A stretch of 64,000 bases of DNA from the NCBI RefSeq assembly GCF_000259195.1, contig NZ_JH650767.1:94753-158752 (forward strand). Direction: 5' to 3'. Positions 9,441-18,764 of this stretch are shown piece by piece. This DNA comes from Pseudomonas donghuensis. Its GTDB lineage: Bacteria > Pseudomonadota > Gammaproteobacteria > Pseudomonadales > Pseudomonadaceae. The notes under the pieces were generated by a model. The model searched no databases. It had not been told where the DNA came from and saw nothing but the letters and a program-made list of their open reading frames with translations. Positions within the stretch are counted from its first letter, which is position 1; the number at the start of each line of letters is the position of its first letter. A program made the position numbers and the translations under genes.

Positions 9441-9525
9441 GCCCTGATGGCGGAATTGGTAGACGCGGCGGATTCAAAATCCGTTTTCGAAAGGAGTGGG
9501 AGTTCGAGTCTCCCTCGGGGCACCA
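9441..9525 (+). tRNA. tRNA-Leu (anticodon CAA)
   Basis: An 85-base class II tRNA. The acceptor strand GCCCTGA pairs with TCGGGGC (one G-T pair), followed by A and an encoded CCA. The anticodon stem GCGGA/TCCGT closes the loop TTCAAAA, giving anticodon CAA. The long variable arm and TTCGAGTC T-loop are present. Its 3' end is the attachment core of the island that follows. Confidence 0.95.
9504..9525. other. attL: left attachment core of the tRNA-Leu island
   Basis: The 3' end of the tRNA gene, TCGAGTCTCCCTCGGG followed by GCACCA, recurs at 18733-18752 with one G missing. The 16-bp identity marks the likely crossover region. Confidence 0.85.
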
Positions 9526-9570
9526 TATAGCAGTATCTGAAAGTCTCTACCAGACTCTCAGACCCAGAGA

Positions 9571-9598
9571 AACCGGCCACTTGAGCCGGTTTTTTTTG
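9571..9598 (+). terminator. Rho-independent terminator at island left end
   Basis: Stem AACCGGC / GCCGGTT with loop CACTTGA, then a run of T. It stops read-through from the tRNA-Leu promoter into the integrase region. Confidence 0.85.
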
Positions 9599-9616
9599 TG
9601 TCTGGCTATCTACCTC

Positions 9617-9688
9617 TGTATCCCCTTATCCGTTGTATCCCTGTATCCCTGCTTGTATCCTGAGAAAAATGCCGAACTTTGGGATACA
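9617..9688. repeat. TGTATCC arm-site repeats, left end of island
   Basis: Four direct copies of TGTATCC start at 9617, 9634, 9642 and 9654, and one inverted copy (GGATACA) lies at 9682-9688. They sit between the attachment core and the integrase start and match two copies near the right end. This arrangement is typical of integrase arm-binding sites, and it overlaps the presumed integrase promoter. Confidence 0.75.
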
Positions 9689-9691
9689 AGG

Positions 9692-10323
9692 ATGAAGCGC
9701 GCAGATATCAAGCGCCGCCCTCTCGCAGACACGACGCTTGCGGGGCTGGAGCCAGAATCAAAGGAATACAGGGAGCTGGACGGAAGCGGCCTCTACTTCA
9801 GGGTCAAACCTGATGGTGGGAAATCCTGGCAGCTCCGCTACAAACGTCCGGCAGGCAATTGGGCCTGGATGGGGCTCGGGGGTTACCCGGAAGTAAGCGG
9901 TGCATTGGCACGGGACAAAGCTGCTGAACTACGCAAGGTAGTTAGCAGCGGCGCCGATCCTCTCGAACAGAAACGCTCCGCCAAAGCTGCCATTGACGCT
10001 GCCAGGACTCGGACCTTCCGAGCTGCTGCTGAAGCTTGGCTCAAGGCCAAAGAAGAAAAGGGCCTCGCTCCCTCCACTCTTAACAAAATCCGCACTTACC
10101 TCGACAAAGACATCCTCCCGGCATTGGGAGATAAGCCCCTCGACGAAATCACGCGTACCGACTGCGCAGAACTCCAGGCATCCCTCGAAGCGCGAAACGC
10201 ACACAACGTGGCGGAAAAGTGCCGCACGTGGATCAATCAGATCTTCGGCCGAGCCATCGGCCTAGGGCTCACCGAAAACGATCCAGGCAGCCGCCTGCGT
10301 GACATCGCAGCACAAGCTCCTAG
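9692..10323 (+). pseudogene. P4-type tyrosine integrase, 3' part lost
   Basis: Site-specific recombinase of the island. The surviving part (about 210 residues) has the DUF4102 arm-binding domain (LADTTLAGLEPESKEYRELD, YFRVKPDGGKSWQLRY, WMGLGGYPEVS) and the SAM-like core-binding domain (TFRAAAEAWLKAKEEKGLAP...). The catalytic domain with the Arg...His-x-x-Arg...Tyr residues is missing: the frame runs into an IS at 10320 and ends inside it at 10372. The sequence after the IS (11273 on) does not resume a recognisable integrase, so a deletion accompanied or followed the insertion. Confidence 0.9.
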
Positions 10324-11272
10324 GTTCTGTACGAAATCCCGAGAAACCCAATCGACGTCCCTCGGAAGCTGAAGTTTTGTAGAGTTTCCAGCCATCTACG
10401 GAAAGGAATCCTGTGATGGCAAAGCGTTACGAACTCTCGGATGAGGCTTGGGCTGTGGTCGCTGATCTCTTCACCGAAACCCATGGCCGGGGGCGGCCCC
10501 GCCTGAGTGACCGCCTGATGCTCGATGGCGTGCTCTGGGTGCTCTGCTCAGGTGCAGCGTGGCGAGATATGCCGGAACGCTTCGGCCCGTGGTCAACGGT
10601 GTATCAACGGTTTCGGGGCTGGCGAAACCAGGGGGCATTCGATCAGATGCTCAAACGCTTGCACCTGAGATTGAATGAGCAAGGCTTGATCGATGTGCAA
10701 ACCTGGATGATCGACTCAACCGCAGTACGTGCAACCCGAGCCTCTTCTGGCGCCGGGAAAAAAGGGGGCCTGACGAGCCTGCCGATCACGCTCTAGGCCG
10801 CAGTCGCGGTGGCCTGACAACCAAAATCCACATGCTCTGCGACGCCAACGGGACACCATTGCGCTTCCTCCTCTCTGGAGGTCAAGCCAGTGACATCAGC
10901 TATGCCCAACCCCTGTTGGACGAGGTTAGCATTCCATCGAGCCAACGTGGCCGCCCGCGTAAGCGCTGTAAATGGCTGCTTGCCGACAAGGGCTACGACG
11001 CCGAAGCGCTACGCCGTTACTGCGACCAATATCGAATGCAACCCGTCATCCCGCTGCGTTCGATGAAACGCAAACCCAAGCCTGGCTTACCAAGACTGTT
11101 TGATCGGCCCAAGTACCGACAACGCAACATCATCGAGCGCATGTTTGGCTGGCTGAAAGAGAACCGACGGATCGTGACGCGCTTCGACAAGCTCGCGAAA
11201 AGCTATGCCGCTATGGTCTCGCTGGCTTGTTCCATGCGGTGTTTGCGACATCTCTTTTCGTACAGAACCTAG
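10320..11272 (+). mobile_element. IS5-family (IS427-like) insertion sequence
   Basis: Inverted ends GTTCTGTACGAAA (left, from 10324) and TTTCGTACAGAAC (right, to 11268) are perfect complements, flanked on both sides by CTAG (10320-10323 and 11269-11272), a probable 4-bp target duplication. The element is about 945 bp and carries a two-frame DDE transposase. It sits inside the island integrase. Confidence 0.88.
10416..11272 (+). CDS. IS5/IS427-type DDE transposase, two frames joined by -1 slip
   Basis: The first frame (10416-10796) starts MAKRYELSDEAWAVVADLF and includes WMIDSTAVRAT, the first catalytic Asp. The second frame (open to 11272) has LLADKGYDAEALRRYC (second Asp) and RNIIERMFGWLKENRRI (catalytic Glu in the R..E..K region). 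The frames meet at six A then five G (10758-10768), where a -1 slip continues through GPDEPADHALGRSRGGLTTK into the second frame. Such slippery runs are a known way of making the full transposase in the IS427 group; a plain frameshift mutation cannot be excluded. The stop overlaps the flanking CTAG. Confidence 0.85.
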
Positions 11273-11507
11273 ATCCGCAAAGCGGCAAGCGCACTCAAGT
11301 TTTGACTGCGACGTCCGCCCCTCGTAAACCTCGTTAGCTCAAGACTTACAAAAACCCTCACACTGGTTAAGTCGTAGAAACCAAAGGTGGTAATCACAGC
11401 ACGCTAAAAGAGTGGAAAATCAAACACGGTTCTGATGAGGTGGAAAACAGGCTAAAAATGTAAAAACGACTCATCAGAAAGGGCCCAAAGGGCCCTTTTT
11501 TATTGGA
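11273..11507. other. Non-coding stretch between IS and helicase gene
   Basis: 235 bases without a convincing gene. The sequence just after the IS should hold the rest of the integrase but shows no catalytic motifs. It ends in a terminator hairpin at 11478-11503. Confidence 0.6.
11478..11503. terminator. Terminator hairpin GGGCCC/GGGCCC
   Basis: AAAGGGCCC, loop AAA, GGGCCCTTTTTT. A symmetrical stem with A-run and T-run, so it can act on either strand; it lies just after the stop of the minus-strand helicase gene. Confidence 0.8.
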
Positions 11508-12989
11508 TTAGCGTAGGACAGACATACACCTATTTAATATCTCCTGATTACCTATGATCACAACATTTAATCTTTTCCTTGCGCGAGTAATATTTTGGAA
11601 CAGCATTTTAGTCATATTATAATACGCCGAACCCTTATAATATAATTCGCCGTCAGAATTATAAGAAAAATACTGATCTATCGGTATCGCAACACTGTCG
11701 AACTCTTGCCCAATAACTCGATGCGATGTTTTTTTGGCAACGGCACAATATTTTTCATGATGCTCATTTCCGTATTGCGACGGAGTAAACCTAAGTACTT
11801 CCCAGCCACACTCATCCAGCGTAGCAAGATAGGACCTTGCATCCTCCAAGCTATTGAAATAGCTAAGCTCAATATTGTTCGTACTTGACAAGGGTAGATT
11901 TCTTTTATTATTAAAAAGAACCCTAATAAAATTTGCAATTTCTTTGTTTGTACGAATTTTTTCGGATAGCTTGTGCACGACCAAATTTTTTATAGAACTT
12001 ATCGAAGCATCAATATCGCTTCTTTCTTCCCAGTTAGCTAACGTCTGAAGTTTGTCATAGGAAAAAATGCAACTCCCGCTCGACGCCTGGACCTTAGCAA
12101 TAATATCGTTTAATTGATGAGGACGAACACGCTGCGACTCGTCAACAATGACCAAATCATATTTCGCCAAATCATAGGATAAGTAGCTTTTTATAGGAAT
12201 AATATCCCAACCACATCCCATTAGCTCAACATGCCCCTCATTCAACTGTCCACAATGGATGATAAGATTACTTTTTTTCAGCTTTGTATATTGTTTCGAA
12301 ATATCATATACAAGCAGAGTCTTGCCCGTACCCGCACTGCCTATCACCGAAATAAATTTCACCATTTTCGGCCCAGTCAAATACTGCAAAATTCGACTTC
12401 TAATTTCTTCCTGCTGATGAGTTAAAAAATATTCGTCACGCAAAAATTTTTGAGTTGAGTTGAAGGGCGAAACCAAATAATCAGAGGGATTAAAAAGATC
12501 ATCAACAATTTCTTCGCGATTAATCTCTTGGGAAGCGAGCAAATCCCTCAAGGAACTAAGATCAACCTTTACCAGACAATTATCATCTTTTAGATAATAC
12601 AGCGCCTTCACATCCGACACATAGGTGAAGCAATATACATATCTACCAACACAAGATAGATAATACCGATTCCTCACCAACTGATCTTTTATTTTTTCCT
12701 CTGAGCAAGTTTTTTTAAGCTCAATGTTGACAACGTTATCCTTCCCAAATCTTAACAAATCAAACTCTTTACCTATTTGGGGAATTTGATAACCAACGTA
12801 AAACGCAGAAAAAACACTAGCATTACCAGATAAACCATACAACCCGCCAACCAGCCCTTTAAGATCTTCGACTTCTGCTGGCTTTATTTTTATATTATGG
12901 TGCGTTAAAAACTCGTCAAACATAGCAGGCGTTAACGAGGTATTTGCTTGCACCAAAGACAGGATGTTTATGTATTTCACGTTATACAC
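11508..12989 (-). CDS. PD-(D/E)XK nuclease-DUF2075/Schlafen-like helicase fusion
   Basis: Probable nucleic-acid-acting defence protein (493 aa). The N-terminal part has a nuclease-like signature: Asp77 in KEFDLL and Glu90-x-Lys92 in NIELKK. The C-terminal part is a superfamily-1 ATPase of the DUF2075 type: Walker A GSAGTGKT (217-224), Walker B LVIVDES (279-285), motif FSYDKLQ (309-315), VIGQEFDSV (425-433) and the arginine motif NITRARKR (466-473). The start is GTG at 12989 with only a weak ribosome site; a second GTG three codons on is possible. The gene is AT-rich with codon use unlike the core. A 153-base gap with a GACCCTG hairpin separates it from the HerA gene, so it may be a separate unit. 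Family placement is by motif only. Confidence 0.7.
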   Translation of the reverse strand: MYNVKYINILSLVQANTSLTPAMFDEFLTHHNIKIKPAEVEDLKGLVGGLYGLSGNASVFSAFYVGYQIPQIGKEFDLLRFGKDNVVNIELKKTCSEEKIKDQLVRNRYYLSCVGRYVYCFTYVSDVKALYYLKDDNCLVKVDLSSLRDLLASQEINREEIVDDLFNPSDYLVSPFNSTQKFLRDEYFLTHQQEEIRSRILQYLTGPKMVKFISVIGSAGTGKTLLVYDISKQYTKLKKSNLIIHCGQLNEGHVELMGCGWDIIPIKSYLSYDLAKYDLVIVDESQRVRPHQLNDIIAKVQASSGSCIFSYDKLQTLANWEERSDIDASISSIKNLVVHKLSEKIRTNKEIANFIRVLFNNKRNLPLSSTNNIELSYFNSLEDARSYLATLDECGWEVLRFTPSQYGNEHHEKYCAVAKKTSHRVIGQEFDSVAIPIDQYFSYNSDGELYYKGSAYYNMTKMLFQNITRARKRLNVVIIGNQEILNRCMSVLR

Positions 12990-13142
12990 CGACTAAGTCC
13001 AATTAAAATTTAACTCAATTTTCTTAATCTAACGACCCTGGCCATCCGAGGTCAGGGTCGGGATTCGATTGAACGGCAATACCTGCTACCGGACTAAAGC
13101 AGTGCTTCAATGAGGCACTGCAATTAAGAGCAATTCAACTTC

Positions 13143-14909
13143 TTACTTTCTCCAACGCTCAATGACCTGAGCGAAGACAACATCGCGCCATGGCGTTTTC
13201 CACTCACTATGAACCCTAACGCTTTGGGAATGTGGTTCTGGAACCGGTAGCGGCATCTTGATCACAGCTGGCAACAACACGGCGTCACCAACCACAACGC
13301 ACTCGCCAGGAGCCAGGTTAGGCAGGATCTCTGTGATCGCATTGGCGTTGTCGGGGAATAGCCGTCGTACGTAGGTCTGATCTGCGTCGTTCGTAAGGCG
13401 CAACGAAATGAAGTTGTTGCACTGGGCGAATATTGTTTCCGACACTTCCGAGGGTCGTTGGCTCACCACCATCAGGCTCAAGCCGTATTTTCGTCCTTCC
13501 TTTGCAATGCGTTCGATGGATTTTCGGGATGCACGGTAGGCTGCGTGACTGTCCCGCGGTACATAGTTGTGCGCCTCTTCACACACGAGCATGACAGGGA
13601 TGTCGTTGAGTTTGCCTTCGGCATGCTGCAGTTTGGAATAATGAAAGCAAAAGTCAAAGATGAGGCGAGAGATCAGGCTTACCGTGACGCTAAGAACTTC
13701 GAAAGGAACTCCGCTCAAGTCCACAATGGTGACGTTCGCCTTGTGGAGATAGCCGATGAATTGCTTCATCAACGTCTCAAAATCCTCGGTAACATGTGCC
13801 TGCCCATCAGCTTTCTTTGAGTTCAAAAGGAACCGGAGGCGCTTATCAGCCAATTTCGCCTCCAGTCGCGAAACGAACCTATTGAACTCTCCATTGAATG
13901 GTCCATTAGTAGCCTTGCTTGCTGCTGCAGTTGAGTTGGCAACAAAATCGTGGACTTTCTCAAAATAAATTTTCCGATCAGCCACCAAATCTCCGTTGGC
14001 TAGCTTTGGCTTGTCTTCTCCGGGCAGCCGACCAATTACCTCTCGATTCAGGTTTTCAATGAAGTTGTAAACTTCCTTAATCGAAAAATAAACTGGGGTG
14101 TCGTAAGTCACCTCCGGAACATCTGGATTGTGCATTTCTTTATTCAAAACAACAGCATACTTAAACTGACTAACTTGATTATGAGAGTTCGACTCATTAC
14201 TCTCGATAAACATGCTTTCCAGTTCTTCTGAATTCATCAGCCAATAAGGAAGCTGTAGAGTATCAATATCTAGCCGACTCAGAGTAAATAACTCTTCCGC
14301 CTGCAAAGTAAACGCAGCGGTATATTCATCATGAATATCAAATATCACAACATGCGAGTTATTTTGCATGTCCTTGTTATTGTTTTTACGCTGAGATATC
14401 CCAACGATACCTTGGAGCACGCTCGCAACAGTGCACGACTTACCGGAGCCAGTAGAACCCACAACGGCAATATGCTTACTGAAGAATCTATTGCCGCTGA
14501 TCATAAGATCAATGGCTTTATTCATTGAGAGTTTGCCAAGAGGAAAATCGTGATCACCATCTGCCGAAAATATCTTGTCTAAAGTATCGTTTTCTGCAAT
14601 GAATGCATGCTCAGTTGGTACCGGCAAGAGGAGACTACTACGGTCAAACGTTTTGTCATCTACCAGGGTTCCTATCGCCTGGCACTCAATCTGGAAGCTC
14701 CATGCTGGCTTCCCGTCTGGAGTGGTCGTATTTGTGCCTTTGATATTTCGGATGGTGGCAATTGTAAAATCATGGTTGCCTTGTGCAATTTTTAGAAAGC
14801 GGCCAACCTGCAGCCCCTCTTTATTTCTCTCGAAAGTTTCAAGACTATCCACCGCAACGATGACGGCTTCTGGCGCACACGAGAGCACAGCTCCAATTTT
14901 AATAGGCAT
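13143..14909 (-). CDS. HerA-type hexameric ATPase
   Basis: FtsK/HerA-class ATPase (588 aa) with an N-terminal HAS-barrel-like region (1-100), Walker A GSTGSGKS (151-158), Walker B VMLVCEEAHN (439-448), the sensor-like VVSQRPSEVS (481-490) and a C-terminal arginine-containing region. In other bacteria such ATPases form rings that bind a nuclease partner, and HerA with DUF4297 or SIR2 partners are known anti-phage systems. The start at 14909 overlaps the preceding nuclease gene by 11 bases, so the two are almost certainly co-translated. Phage defence is inferred from this pairing and the island context. Confidence 0.85.
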   Translation of the reverse strand: MPIKIGAVLSCAPEAVIVAVDSLETFERNKEGLQVGRFLKIAQGNHDFTIATIRNIKGTNTTTPDGKPAWSFQIECQAIGTLVDDKTFDRSSLLLPVPTEHAFIAENDTLDKIFSADGDHDFPLGKLSMNKAIDLMISGNRFFSKHIAVVGSTGSGKSCTVASVLQGIVGISQRKNNNKDMQNNSHVVIFDIHDEYTAAFTLQAEELFTLSRLDIDTLQLPYWLMNSEELESMFIESNESNSHNQVSQFKYAVVLNKEMHNPDVPEVTYDTPVYFSIKEVYNFIENLNREVIGRLPGEDKPKLANGDLVADRKIYFEKVHDFVANSTAAASKATNGPFNGEFNRFVSRLEAKLADKRLRFLLNSKKADGQAHVTEDFETLMKQFIGYLHKANVTIVDLSGVPFEVLSVTVSLISRLIFDFCFHYSKLQHAEGKLNDIPVMLVCEEAHNYVPRDSHAAYRASRKSIERIAKEGRKYGLSLMVVSQRPSEVSETIFAQCNNFISLRLTNDADQTYVRRLFPDNANAITEILPNLAPGECVVVGDAVLLPAVIKMPLPVPEPHSQSVRVHSEWKTPWRDVVFAQVIERWRK

Positions 14910-16077
14910 TGCTCATCCCCATCATATATTTGATTTCATCAAATTTTTCGGCACCTAGGGCTTCCAGATTTACATCCTTGAGATCTAGACTCGTAATATC
15001 TCCATCTCCAATTACAAAAAAATCATCCGCTTTAATTTTAAGCTGAAGTTTTTTGTAATCATCCCAACGAATAAACCTTAGAACAAACTCTTTTTTATCT
15101 TTTAGAACCATCGGCTCACGGAAAAAACTGATCTCGGAAAACGTTTTCACTGGGCGTCCGAGGTTTGGCACCACATCCTTCCCGATCAGTCGCTCCGCAA
15201 TTTCATCAAATAAATCTTGAGTAACGTCCAGCGCAAAGAGGGGTGTATGCGCATGTGCCTGTTTGAAATGGTACTTATCAATAAATGACTTGATAAAAAG
15301 AACAATCTGGTCATCGAACTGCTCTAAAAACGCAGGAAAAATAACCAAGAAGCGCAGGCGAACATTTAAACTCAAGTTTTCTTTTAGCTGTTTACGTCGT
15401 ATTTCCAAAACCTTCTGTCGAGTCTTTAACGCAAGTGTCCACTGGGAAACCGCTGTAGATCTGATTCGGCGTAATGCTTCTAAAAAATTCTTCTTGGTGA
15501 TTTTTCTAAGATCTTCCTCATGCTTGATACTCAGATCAGCAATGATTTGAATGGAATTTGGATAGAAGAGAGTTTCTACTTCACCCTTGTTGAAACCGTG
15601 GGCCTCAAGTAGCTTTGTGTTTTCCTCCATTAAGTCGTCGTATTTAGGTGTTACCGTAATTGCGAATAATTTCAGGAATTCATCAACATCAACACCGGCA
15701 ACCTCTGCAATCAAGCCTTGCAGGTCTTTATTTTTAGAGTTGAGCGCACTCTTCAGCTCTACAGAGGAAATGACGATTTCTGGATTATTCGGAAAATGCG
15801 CGAACAGATGATATTTTATCTTTGCGGTTGGATTAGACTTAAAATGCTTCATCATCTGAAGCAAAGGATCATATAGAATGCTCGGCGTATACTTATCCTG
15901 CGCCTCGTGATACTTACACTGAATCGCTTTAATTCCCGAAAATGTTGCTACCTCAATATCTTCAACAATACCTTCGATAGTAATTTCTGCCTCATCCGCC
16001 GCTTTCAGAAGTTCAGCGAGCGTCTGATTAAATTGGTACAAGAACCCTTGTATTGTGTAGTCGGCCGAACGTCCCAT
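14899..16077 (-). CDS. DUF4297-like PD-(D/E)XK nuclease, HerA partner
   Basis: 392 aa. The N terminus has the pattern of the DUF4297/Cap4-type nuclease: GFLYQFNQTLAELL (11-24), the acidic strand GIVEDIEVAT (36-45) and IQCKYHE (52-58), where Asp40, Gln53 and Lys55 would be the active-site set (a Q-x-K variant of (D/E)-x-K). The remaining 300 residues are mostly helical, with no motif I recognise. AGAGG precedes the ATG at 16077 by five bases. It sits between the small Cys-His-Asp gene (19 bp upstream) and herA (11-bp overlap). DUF4297 membership is judged by eye; a profile search would settle it. Confidence 0.68.
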   Translation of the reverse strand: MGRSADYTIQGFLYQFNQTLAELLKAADEAEITIEGIVEDIEVATFSGIKAIQCKYHEAQDKYTPSILYDPLLQMMKHFKSNPTAKIKYHLFAHFPNNPEIVISSVELKSALNSKNKDLQGLIAEVAGVDVDEFLKLFAITVTPKYDDLMEENTKLLEAHGFNKGEVETLFYPNSIQIIADLSIKHEEDLRKITKKNFLEALRRIRSTAVSQWTLALKTRQKVLEIRRKQLKENLSLNVRLRFLVIFPAFLEQFDDQIVLFIKSFIDKYHFKQAHAHTPLFALDVTQDLFDEIAERLIGKDVVPNLGRPVKTFSEISFFREPMVLKDKKEFVLRFIRWDDYKKLQLKIKADDFFVIGDGDITSLDLKDVNLEALGAEKFDEIKYMMGMSNAY

Positions 16078-16096
16078 TTTGACCTCTGCAGTTTTT

Positions 16097-16516
16097 TTAC
16101 GTTGTTAATTTCGGGAGGCCGGCCTCGCTGAGCACTGCTCGAAGTATGTTGCGCTCCTCGCTGTAGGTCCAGGCACTTGGATGATGAATTGCAATGTGCC
16201 GCGCCGACTCCTCCCATGACGCATACCAATCATCTTTTACAGCGATGAATACTGGGGGGCGGCCATCGAACTGGTCGCTGGTAATGTCAATAACTACATC
16301 GTCGAGCTCAAGCCAAGCATGGGAGCCGCCGTCACGCTCGCCACACACGTATTCAACCCGCAAACCTAGCTGGGTATTGAGATAGTCCCCGAGCAGCTCC
16401 GAAACGACACCACAACAGCCCCGTGGGAATGTCTGCAGGTGTGTCGGGAGCTGGCCTCGAAATTTTTGTGCATCAAACCCTTTACGAAAAGAATGAGTGA
16501 CGACAATAAAATCCAA
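16097..16516 (-). CDS. Small transglutaminase/NlpC-like Cys-His-Asp protein
   Basis: 139 aa, function unknown. It shows an ordered triad typical of papain/transglutaminase folds: Cys34/Cys35 in PRGCCGVVSELLGDYL, His66 in GGSHAWLELDD and Asp77 in VVIDITSDQF. No signal peptide is seen. The start is TTG at 16516, supported by GGAGG seven bases upstream; no better ATG exists. It is the first gene of a likely three-gene operon with the DUF4297-like nuclease and HerA. It could be a peptidase, amidase or deamidase; the substrate is unknown. Confidence 0.65.
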   Translation of the reverse strand: MDFIVVTHSFRKGFDAQKFRGQLPTHLQTFPRGCCGVVSELLGDYLNTQLGLRVEYVCGERDGGSHAWLELDDVVIDITSDQFDGRPPVFIAVKDDWYASWEESARHIAIHHPSAWTYSEERNILRAVLSEAGLPKLTT

Positions 16517-17185
16517 TATCTTCCTCCTCGTTTTCTGATGCGCCCTACGTTCTGTATCGGCCCCAGCTTAGTAGGCGCTTTGAATGTTTGCTATTTTGGC
16601 CGACGGCTACTTGGCACAAAATGGACCTGGTAGCCTGCTGTCCGCACTAGACAGGCTGCTGATAATACTACTGGGCAGATGACGATCCAAACGGCCTACA
16701 TCATAGCGCACATTCATTCTTCTGAAGCGTTACACCAGTTAGCCTAGTAACATTTCCAACTGCTGACGCACAACGACAGTGTTACTTAATAAATACCCAA
16801 TAAATACAGTCGGTTAGATAACATCGTTACACCAGTAACATGGGTAACACGGTTTTTAGGGGCAACGTAACCCCAGCTCCCCGGACGCATCATTCCCTCC
16901 AGCGAATGTCACGTGCATGGTCCAAAGTACGCCGGGGTCCCTGAGGCGTTCATTGGGACGCGGGGTCGGAAACCCGCGAGACTTTGTTAGCAGCAGGGCG
17001 TCCAGCTTAGTGAACAGGTGAACTGGGTTAACACACCCGTCTGGGTGGTGAACCCAATCAATCATTCTCTAGCCTACTGACCCTTCTCATCGGGAGGCCG
17101 TCAACCTCGTCAACTGTCAACCATCGTCAACCGGCCGCCCGCTAGCAAGACGGCGCGGGTTTCCGACCCCGTGTAACTGCAAAGC
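16517..17185. other. Long non-coding stretch with GTTAC/GTAAC and GGTGAAC repeats
   Basis: About 670 bases with no convincing gene. From 16728 to 16880 GTTAC or GTAAC recurs many times, including two copies of CGTTACACCAGT (at about 16728 and 16823). From 17011 to 17055 GTGAAC recurs (AGTGAACAGGTGAACTGG, GGTGGTGAACCC). The repeats resemble replication-origin iterons, but this is only a resemblance. Confidence 0.5.
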
Positions 17186-17815
17186 TCACAGGGTCCCCGG
17201 CACCGTTTTAGAGCTCAAGATCGGATGACCTCGGAAATCAAACCCCGGTAGGGCCCGCTCCAAATAGCCAACGGTGCGAGACTCTAAAAGGGCTTTGGCA
17301 TCCGGCAGCAGTGCGTGTACCTCACCCAGCGTGGGCGCTCTGTCCAACCGCTTGTCCTTCACCAGTTTAACCAGCTCATGACGAAGTCGATTAGCTGCCT
17401 GTTTTGGACCAATCCTCGCATAGACCGAAGCTCGAACCAGAAATGTCGGGAACGCCTCTTGGTAGATTTCAATCAACGCGCTCCAGCGGGGATCATGAAA
17501 CTCTTTACCCACTAGTTCTTTCACCATTGCAAACGCCTGCTTGTGCTTCTCCTGTGAAGCGTCCATTGCGGCGTAGCTGTCGGCCATGTACTGCGCATCC
17601 TGCTCCTCCGCTAGCTGACGACTACGGTTAATGCTGGCGAGAACCTCTTGTGCTTGGGCGATCAGTAAGGAGTCATTCGTAATAATCCCGACGTCCAAAG
17701 CAAGAAGAGCGGCGCCATGAGCGATGTCTTCACTTTCGTAATCATCCTTGTCGTGCCGTTCGAAAGCGGCGAACCTAATTTGCAAAGCTTGGCTTACTGC
17801 CTGGTTGGAATGCAT
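17186..17815 (-). CDS. Hypothetical protein, island cargo
   Basis: 209 aa, not recognised. It starts MHSNQAVSQALQIRFAAFERHDKDDYESED, is rich in Ala, Gln and Glu with long helical stretches (about 30-120), and has no membrane segment, signal peptide or catalytic motif that I can name. The ATG at 17815 follows AGAGTG. It lies alone, transcribed toward the HerA operon and divergent from the AbiV gene. Defence function is only suggested by its neighbours. Confidence 0.6.
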   Translation of the reverse strand: MHSNQAVSQALQIRFAAFERHDKDDYESEDIAHGAALLALDVGIITNDSLLIAQAQEVLASINRSRQLAEEQDAQYMADSYAAMDASQEKHKQAFAMVKELVGKEFHDPRWSALIEIYQEAFPTFLVRASVYARIGPKQAANRLRHELVKLVKDKRLDRAPTLGEVHALLPDAKALLESRTVGYLERALPGFDFRGHPILSSKTVPGTL

Positions 17816-17934
17816 TGCTGAACACTCTTATCTTGATAATTGACAAGCGCCACACCGGCTGTGACCGGTTATAGCAGAACCTCCCACCGGCGCCGCTACA
17901 TTCGTCCATCCCTATAACGCACGAGGGGCCCACC

Positions 17935-18618
17935 TTGCAGAAAAAACTCGACAGCTACAAAGGCCCACTTTCCATTTCTCAAATAGCGAATGGAATGAAC
18001 GCCGCGTTACAAAACGCGGCACGGCTTGCCAAGGATGCCAGATTGCTTCTTGACTCTGATCGGCTTCCGTCAGCCGTATCGCTAGCAATCCTATCCATTG
18101 AAGAGGCCGGAAAGATTTCCATTCTTCGCGGGTTGGCATTTGCCGAAAACGAGCAAGATCTGAAAATGGAGTGGAGGAGATATCGGTCTCATACCAGCAA
18201 GAATCTACAGTGGACTCTTCCACAACTGGTGGCCGCTGGAGCTCAATCTCTCGATGACATGCGCCCACTGTTTGACGAGGAGTCGGATCACCCACAGCTT
18301 CTGGATCAACTGAAACAGATAGGTTTCTACACTGACTGTTTGGGGAGCAAAGCTCATTGGTCACTCCCGGATGAGGTCATCGACCTCGATCTGGCAAAAA
18401 TGCTCGTCAATACAGCAGAGACCTTAAGCTCTGGCGCCTTGACGACTGAGCGAGAGATCGCATTGTGGGTTGAGCATCTTGGGCCTGTTTGGAAACAGAG
18501 TGACCGACAAATGAAGCAGGCCTTGATCGATTGGTATGGAGCTATGCAAGCGGAAGGCTTGAAAGATGCCGGACCAAACAAAATGGAGCAGTTCGCTCGC
18601 GGTGGCCTGGACAATTGA
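17935..18618 (+). CDS. AbiV-family abortive infection protein (HEPN)
   Basis: 227 aa. The N-terminal half fits the AbiV family: KGPLSISQIANGMNAALQNA, LLLDSDRLPSAVSLAILS and IEEAGKISILRG (about 10-65), the last being the conserved EEAGK helix of the HEPN fold. AbiV of lactococci stops phage translation. The start is TTG at 17935, with GAGGGG six bases upstream; it includes the conserved N-terminal segment that the next ATG (17995) would lose. It sits at the right end of the island, divergent from the unknown gene. A HEPN RNase motif (R-x4-6-H) is not obvious. Confidence 0.8.
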   Translation: MQKKLDSYKGPLSISQIANGMNAALQNAARLAKDARLLLDSDRLPSAVSLAILSIEEAGKISILRGLAFAENEQDLKMEWRRYRSHTSKNLQWTLPQLVAAGAQSLDDMRPLFDEESDHPQLLDQLKQIGFYTDCLGSKAHWSLPDEVIDLDLAKMLVNTAETLSSGALTTEREIALWVEHLGPVWKQSDRQMKQALIDWYGAMQAEGLKDAGPNKMEQFARGGLDN

Positions 18619-18669
18619 CCTGTTCTCCCACCCAGCTTACCCTTTTGTGAAGCACAGCACTTACGACCG

Positions 18670-18688
18670 TGTATCCCTACATGTATCC
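18670..18688. repeat. TGTATCC arm-site repeats, right end of island
   Basis: Two direct copies of TGTATCC, starting at 18670 and 18682, lie about 45 bp inside the right attachment core and match the five copies near the left end. Confidence 0.7.
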
Positions 18689-18732
18689 TTTGTCGCATAA
18701 CAGAGCTACACGTCACGGATTATATGGAACGC

Positions 18733-18752
18733 TCGAGTCTCCCTCGGGCACC
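18733..18752. other. attR: right attachment core
   Basis: TCGAGTCTCCCTCGGG then CACCA repeats the 3' end of tRNA-Leu with one G fewer. The terminator just beyond it is probably the original tRNA-Leu terminator. Confidence 0.85.
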
Positions 18753-18764
18753 AAACGCAAAAAG

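Follow-up and report, generated by a model that had tools for sequence, protein, structure and literature searches.

A DUF4297-HerA defense pair in a tRNA-Leu island of Pseudomonas donghuensis, very probably preceded by an unrelated cargo gene

Introduction

In a 64,000-nucleotide stretch of the Pseudomonas donghuensis genome (contig NZ_JH650767.1, positions 94,753 to 158,752; hereafter the window), a gene for a small protein with Cys, His, and Asp residues stands directly in front of genes for a DUF4297-type nuclease and a HerA-type ATPase. The question raised by this locus is whether the small gene is part of an extended variant of the defense system, as the original prediction suggested, or a passenger that came to lie next to it.

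In Escherichia coli, DUF4297 and HerA are reported to form a 12:6 complex of approximately 1 MDa, an assembly-activated dsDNA nuclease and ATPase that protects against phage lambda through destruction of both host and phage DNA; according to the same source, defense is abolished by D40A/Q53A/K55A or by HerA K157A (An et al. 2024, PMC11291478). The DUF4297 nuclease has been described as Cap4-like (PMC12198126). The E. coli system (PDB 8XAU-8XAY) likewise consists of two genes, one for the nuclease and one for HerA, and the locus studied here differs from it by the passenger gene in front.

Results

The locus contains a complete DUF4297-HerA pair

The open reading frame coordinates agree with the three-gene arrangement that had been predicted. 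All genes lie on the minus strand: the small gene (139 aa) at 16097-16516, the DUF4297 nuclease gene (392 aa) at 14899-16077, and the HerA-type ATPase gene (588 aa) at 13143-14909. The first two are separated by 19 bp (16078-16096, minus strand), a stretch that carries the pair's own ribosome-binding site, and the last two overlap by 11 bp (14899-14909). The small gene begins with a TTG behind GAGGAGGAAGATA, preceded by a GAGGAGG-type site. A TTG in the same place is annotated as the start in relatives at 74% identity from a P. aeruginosa plasmid and from phage vB_PaeS-D14H, while L005, a 73% relative, has an ATG at this position. G+C content is 0.53 in the small gene, 0.40 in the DUF4297 gene, and 0.47 in the HerA gene, compared with 0.60 for the window. 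A DNA search with the three-gene stretch gave no match in E. coli genomes.

The nuclease had been predicted to carry a D...QxK-type site, and this site is present. In a PADLOC profile search, the 392-aa protein was recognized as DUF4297 (7.3e-40), and it contains E35, E39, D40, and Q53-C-K55, corresponding to a PD-(D/E)xK-type site, D40...Q53-x-K55. With phmmer, it matched the solved structures PDB 9c1m (3.7e-74) and 8ziq (1.9e-66) over nearly its full length, while the match to 8xav (3e-18) spanned residues 1-337 of 392. The DUF4297 protein of 9c1m is 436 aa long, with an insertion of some 36 residues between the positions equivalent to window residues 118 and 129. The HerA ATPase was found to be complete, as anticipated, with matches to Pfam DUF87 (2.7e-29) and to the PADLOC HerA profile (2.9e-169) across residues 7-588. 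It matched 9c1m (6.8e-228) and 8ziq (1.1e-217) along nearly its whole length, and 8xau at 7.1e-130 (phmmer).

Judged by its sequence, the lower two genes are thus a DUF4297-HerA pair, another member of an already known system, and the earlier assignment to this type of phage defense was supported by the near full-length matches to 9c1m and 8ziq and by conserved catalytic residues. D40, Q53, K55, and HerA K157 (Walker A) occur at the same numbers as those given for the E. coli proteins (PMC11291478). The E. coli system forms a distant branch, and the complexes 9C1M and 8ZIQ are much closer to the window pair than 8XAU-8XAY. The window pair also misses the cut-offs of the narrow NCBIfam equivalog models (the pair NF042945 / NF042944), at 164.2 bits against 300 for DUF4297 and 618.5 bits against 850 for HerA, which places it closer to the 9c1m and 8ziq proteins than to the targets of those models.

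Relatives of the pair were collected from 80 genome loci, 4 plasmids, and 2 viral records (86 in total), the genome loci being the best 80 of 104 from a contig scan with the DUF4297 alignment. The nuclease residues proved to be conserved among these homologs: Q53 was kept in all 86, D40 in 84 (with 2 gaps), and K55 in 84. The exceptions at D40 and K55 were L094 and L106, where the best tblastn segment covers DUF4297 only in part and the reading frame is probably broken; a third locus, L112, is a remnant that retains DUF4297 residues 1-82 only. A HerA match was found downstream of DUF4297 in 85 of the 86 relatives, the contig of L062 ending before that point, and K157 was kept in 81 of 85, the remaining 4 being gaps.

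The small gene is absent from relatives of the pair

If the small gene were a component of an extended system, its Cys-His-Asp protein would be expected to act on that system, gating it by deamidating, cross-linking, or cleaving DUF4297, HerA, or a phage protein. The position of the gene, on the same strand and at a tight spacing of 19 bp, is in keeping with such a role, as is the intact and invariant triad of its product (see below). Its distribution is not. No member of the small family was detected among the 86 DUF4297 relatives, either by tblastn at 1e-3 or, at E-values up to 10, with a profile built from 21 rows (2 of them duplicates), which matched only the window's own copy. Absence could be assessed in the 81 loci with 439 bp upstream of DUF4297; L054, L090, L091, L105, and L108 have less. 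Among the loci without the gene are 11 close relatives that are 72-87% identical in DUF4297. The co-conservation with HerA systems on which the extended variant depended was therefore not found.

Among 249 same-genus genomes, the small family occurred in 15 (including the window genome) and a DUF4297 match in 3, namely the window's own and two distant ones (33-34% identity), so that the window genome was the only one with both. Plasmid searches gave 61 records with the small family and 19 with DUF4297; of these, 8 (4 for each family) were examined with flanks of 6-8 kb, and none of the 8 contained both. Since the examined relatives of the small gene also stand in other settings, and homology breaks exactly between it and the pair (see below), we regard an extended three-gene variant as very unlikely.

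Nor did another third gene common to the relatives emerge. At the settings used, no neighbor cluster besides the pair was present in more than 7 of 85 loci (L112 excluded). A representative of the 7-locus cluster is a serine recombinase, and one from a 4-locus cluster a YhcG-type nuclease; another cluster holds an annotated N-6 DNA methylase, and two more clusters comprise 4 loci each. In 12 of 85 loci, some gene lies within 50 bp upstream of DUF4297, with differing lengths.

In two relatives, a Methylotuvimicrobium (L024:8990-13188) and a Sphingomonas plasmid (L026:2177-5943), genes for a metallophosphoesterase and for SMC-like or YhaN-annotated (SbcCD-like) proteins adjoin DUF4297-HerA.

Homology breaks at the junction, and most close relatives carry an upstream promoter-like box

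The border between the small gene and the pair could be placed by DNA comparison with relatives of each. The DNA of the pair can be aligned with that of its closest relatives from about 13139 to 16097, with homology ending at 16096/16097 in L111, L039, and L031. Homology of the small gene begins at 16110/16111 in L005 and L027, leaving a junction at 16097-16110. The break coincides with the stop codon of the small gene. At the start of DUF4297, GAGGTCAAAATG recurs unchanged in 4 of the 11 close relatives (L031, L111, L023, and L033), all of which lack the small gene.

In 8 of these 11 relatives (L031, L111, L023, L033, L039, L032, L035, and L036), a promoter-like box was found 56-59 bp before DUF4297, while the other 3 are without a box at the exact spacing. 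It consists of GT[G/T]AC-n, a spacing of exactly 17 nt, and a hexamer such as TAGCGT, which is preceded by TG-n in 6 of the 8. A matrix built from the eight relatives scored them at 22-31 bits in a leave-one-out comparison, values that are raised by their relatedness. The box is missing from the window, where the best score was 5.7 bits in 1123 bp upstream (one strand), against a mean of 3.5 and a maximum of 13.4 bits in 200 shuffles. A generic sigma-70 scan returned 2 sites, fewer than in shuffled sequence (mean 6.0). The small gene thus appears, from this comparison, to occupy the place of the pair's probable promoter, and as it lies where the relatives carry their box, transcription of the pair now probably proceeds as part of the small gene's transcript.

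The small protein is probably transglutaminase-like

The prediction of a Cys-His-Asp protein was borne out by its relatives: C35, H66, and D77 are invariant, together with W68, T79, and Q82, in every row of two alignments, one with 17 rows and one with 27. The larger alignment contained the window protein and 26 of 46 viral relatives; L007, L017 (stop inside), L018, and L019 (a duplicate of L009) were left out of the smaller one. With the YunG/transglutaminase-like superfamily (PF24585, PF01841, PF13471; PHROG 26734), the protein has in common the invariant Cys-His-Asp and a DITxDQF-type motif. Its score against Pfam YunG (PF24585) stays under the family's cut-off (22.8 bits against 27), while a viral relative, L139, passes that of Transglut_core (PF01841; 24.5 against 23 bits). 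It is probably a YunG/transglutaminase-like Cys-His-Asp protein.

Comparisons of fold are no more than suggestive. An AlphaFold2 model of the small protein (pLDDT 96.2) returned protein glutaminases, LapG, and TglA among its top rows, but with Z at most 7.8, and at a threshold of 0.001 it had no match in the PDB with Foldseek and none in BFVD. Several of these enzymes are papain/transglutaminase-like.

The small family travels on plasmids and phages

Members of the small family were found on 61 plasmid records and 46 viral contigs, and in 3 phage records. The neighbors of 12 same-genus copies include genes of GajA/GajB type along with those for cytosine methylase, integrase, and conjugation. 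When 81 of 99 listed open reading frames around 12 small-family loci were scanned, 186 PADLOC families were matched (1e-10), compared with 36 for 88 of 95 open reading frames from 12 control stretches, a comparison that is small, uneven, and weak, with related models counted many times. The scan left out 11 small-family genes and 7 others from the first set and 7 from the controls, and L116, a short contig, was not used.

Two of the copies may be singled out. In what appears to be locus L119 (3933-8848), a relative of the small gene lies just downstream of two GajA/GajB-looking genes, and in what appears to be L117 (7486-10241), relatives form a tandem pair beside a cytosine-methylase-looking gene.

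This distribution suggests that the small gene is a mobile cargo enzyme. It would also fit a gene with a defense or counter-defense role of its own, encoding an enzyme that phages, plasmids, and islands carry as cargo, and that has an island, and perhaps a transcript, in common with the pair, without having a part in its mechanism. The mobile records, the defense-type and mobility neighbors, and the invariant triad all point this way, and such a role is compatible with the gene being a passenger here. PHROG 26734 and Pfam YunG, however, carry no function, the neighbors vary and so do not indicate any partner, and the comparison with control stretches has the weaknesses given above. We therefore consider an independent defense or counter-defense role a reasonable possibility that falls somewhat short of an even chance. 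Literature searches on HerA with DUF4297 turned up no connection between HerA and the small gene, although such a connection may exist in print.

The genes lie in a probable defense island

The three genes are located between a tRNA-Leu(caa) gene (9441-9525, plus strand) and a nearly identical repeat of that gene's 3' end, which form a repeat pair. The probable left end of the island is the tRNA 3' end itself (9504-9525, plus strand), and the probable right end a copy with one G fewer (18733-18753, plus strand), in which 16 bp are exact (18733-18748), followed by CACCA. Inside the left end lies a gene for a tyrosine integrase (9581-10372, plus strand) that is cut short beside an IS4/5-family transposase and has arm- and core-binding domains only. 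A Nhi/AbiO-like gene of 493 aa (11508-12989, minus strand; PADLOC AbiO 6.7e-189, Nhi 2e-183) starts 153 bp after HerA. On the other side of the array, an AbiV (HEPN) gene is found at 17935-18618 (plus strand; Pfam HEPN_AbiV 2.7e-42), and between it and the small gene lies an open reading frame of 209 aa (17186-17815, minus strand) that has no match in Pfam or PADLOC, and no useful one in NCBIfam.

Three kinds of defense genes (Nhi/AbiO-like, DUF4297-HerA, and AbiV) are thus present in 9.2 kb (9441-18753) between the tRNA gene and the near copy, and from its gene content this stretch looks like a common kind of defense island. The Nhi-like gene had no match in the 86 loci related to the pair; in Pantoea, the gene that follows HerA is a different one.

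Discussion

Taken together, we consider it highly likely that the locus contains a standard two-gene DUF4297-HerA abortive-infection system within a tRNA-Leu island, and that an unrelated YunG/transglutaminase-like cargo gene has recombined directly in front of it. This reading follows from the near full-length matches to solved complexes, the conserved catalytic residues, the absence of the small gene among relatives of the pair, the break in homology, the box that is missing here, the differing G+C contents, and the probable island ends; the operonic-looking spacing of 19 bp, the missed equivalog cut-offs, and the 3 close relatives without an exactly spaced box speak against it. By analogy with the solved homologs, a hexameric HerA would assemble with DUF4297 in two layers, and this assembly would activate both the ATPase and the Cap4-like dsDNA nuclease, so that on infection both host and phage DNA would be destroyed. 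The small gene would have recombined in front, after which the pair would be transcribed from the small gene's transcript, and may now depend on it.

A bolder scenario is that the transglutaminase-like gene not only replaced the promoter of the pair, but also became a covalent brake or trigger of the toxic nuclease-ATPase complex, by deamidation or cross-linking. This would be a recent three-gene system, present in one genome so far, and we think it highly improbable.

Recognizing the small gene as a probable passenger removes the false lead of an extended HerA variant, and the locus provides a clean example that close spacing on the same strand need not mean a common system. What remains of the small gene is a different lead, to a family of Cys-His-Asp proteins borne by phages and plasmids. 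For the pair itself, the probable replacement of a promoter upstream of a nuclease system whose E. coli version is toxic is a curiosity, and the promoter-like box upstream of this branch of DUF4297-HerA bears on how the toxic complex is kept in check.
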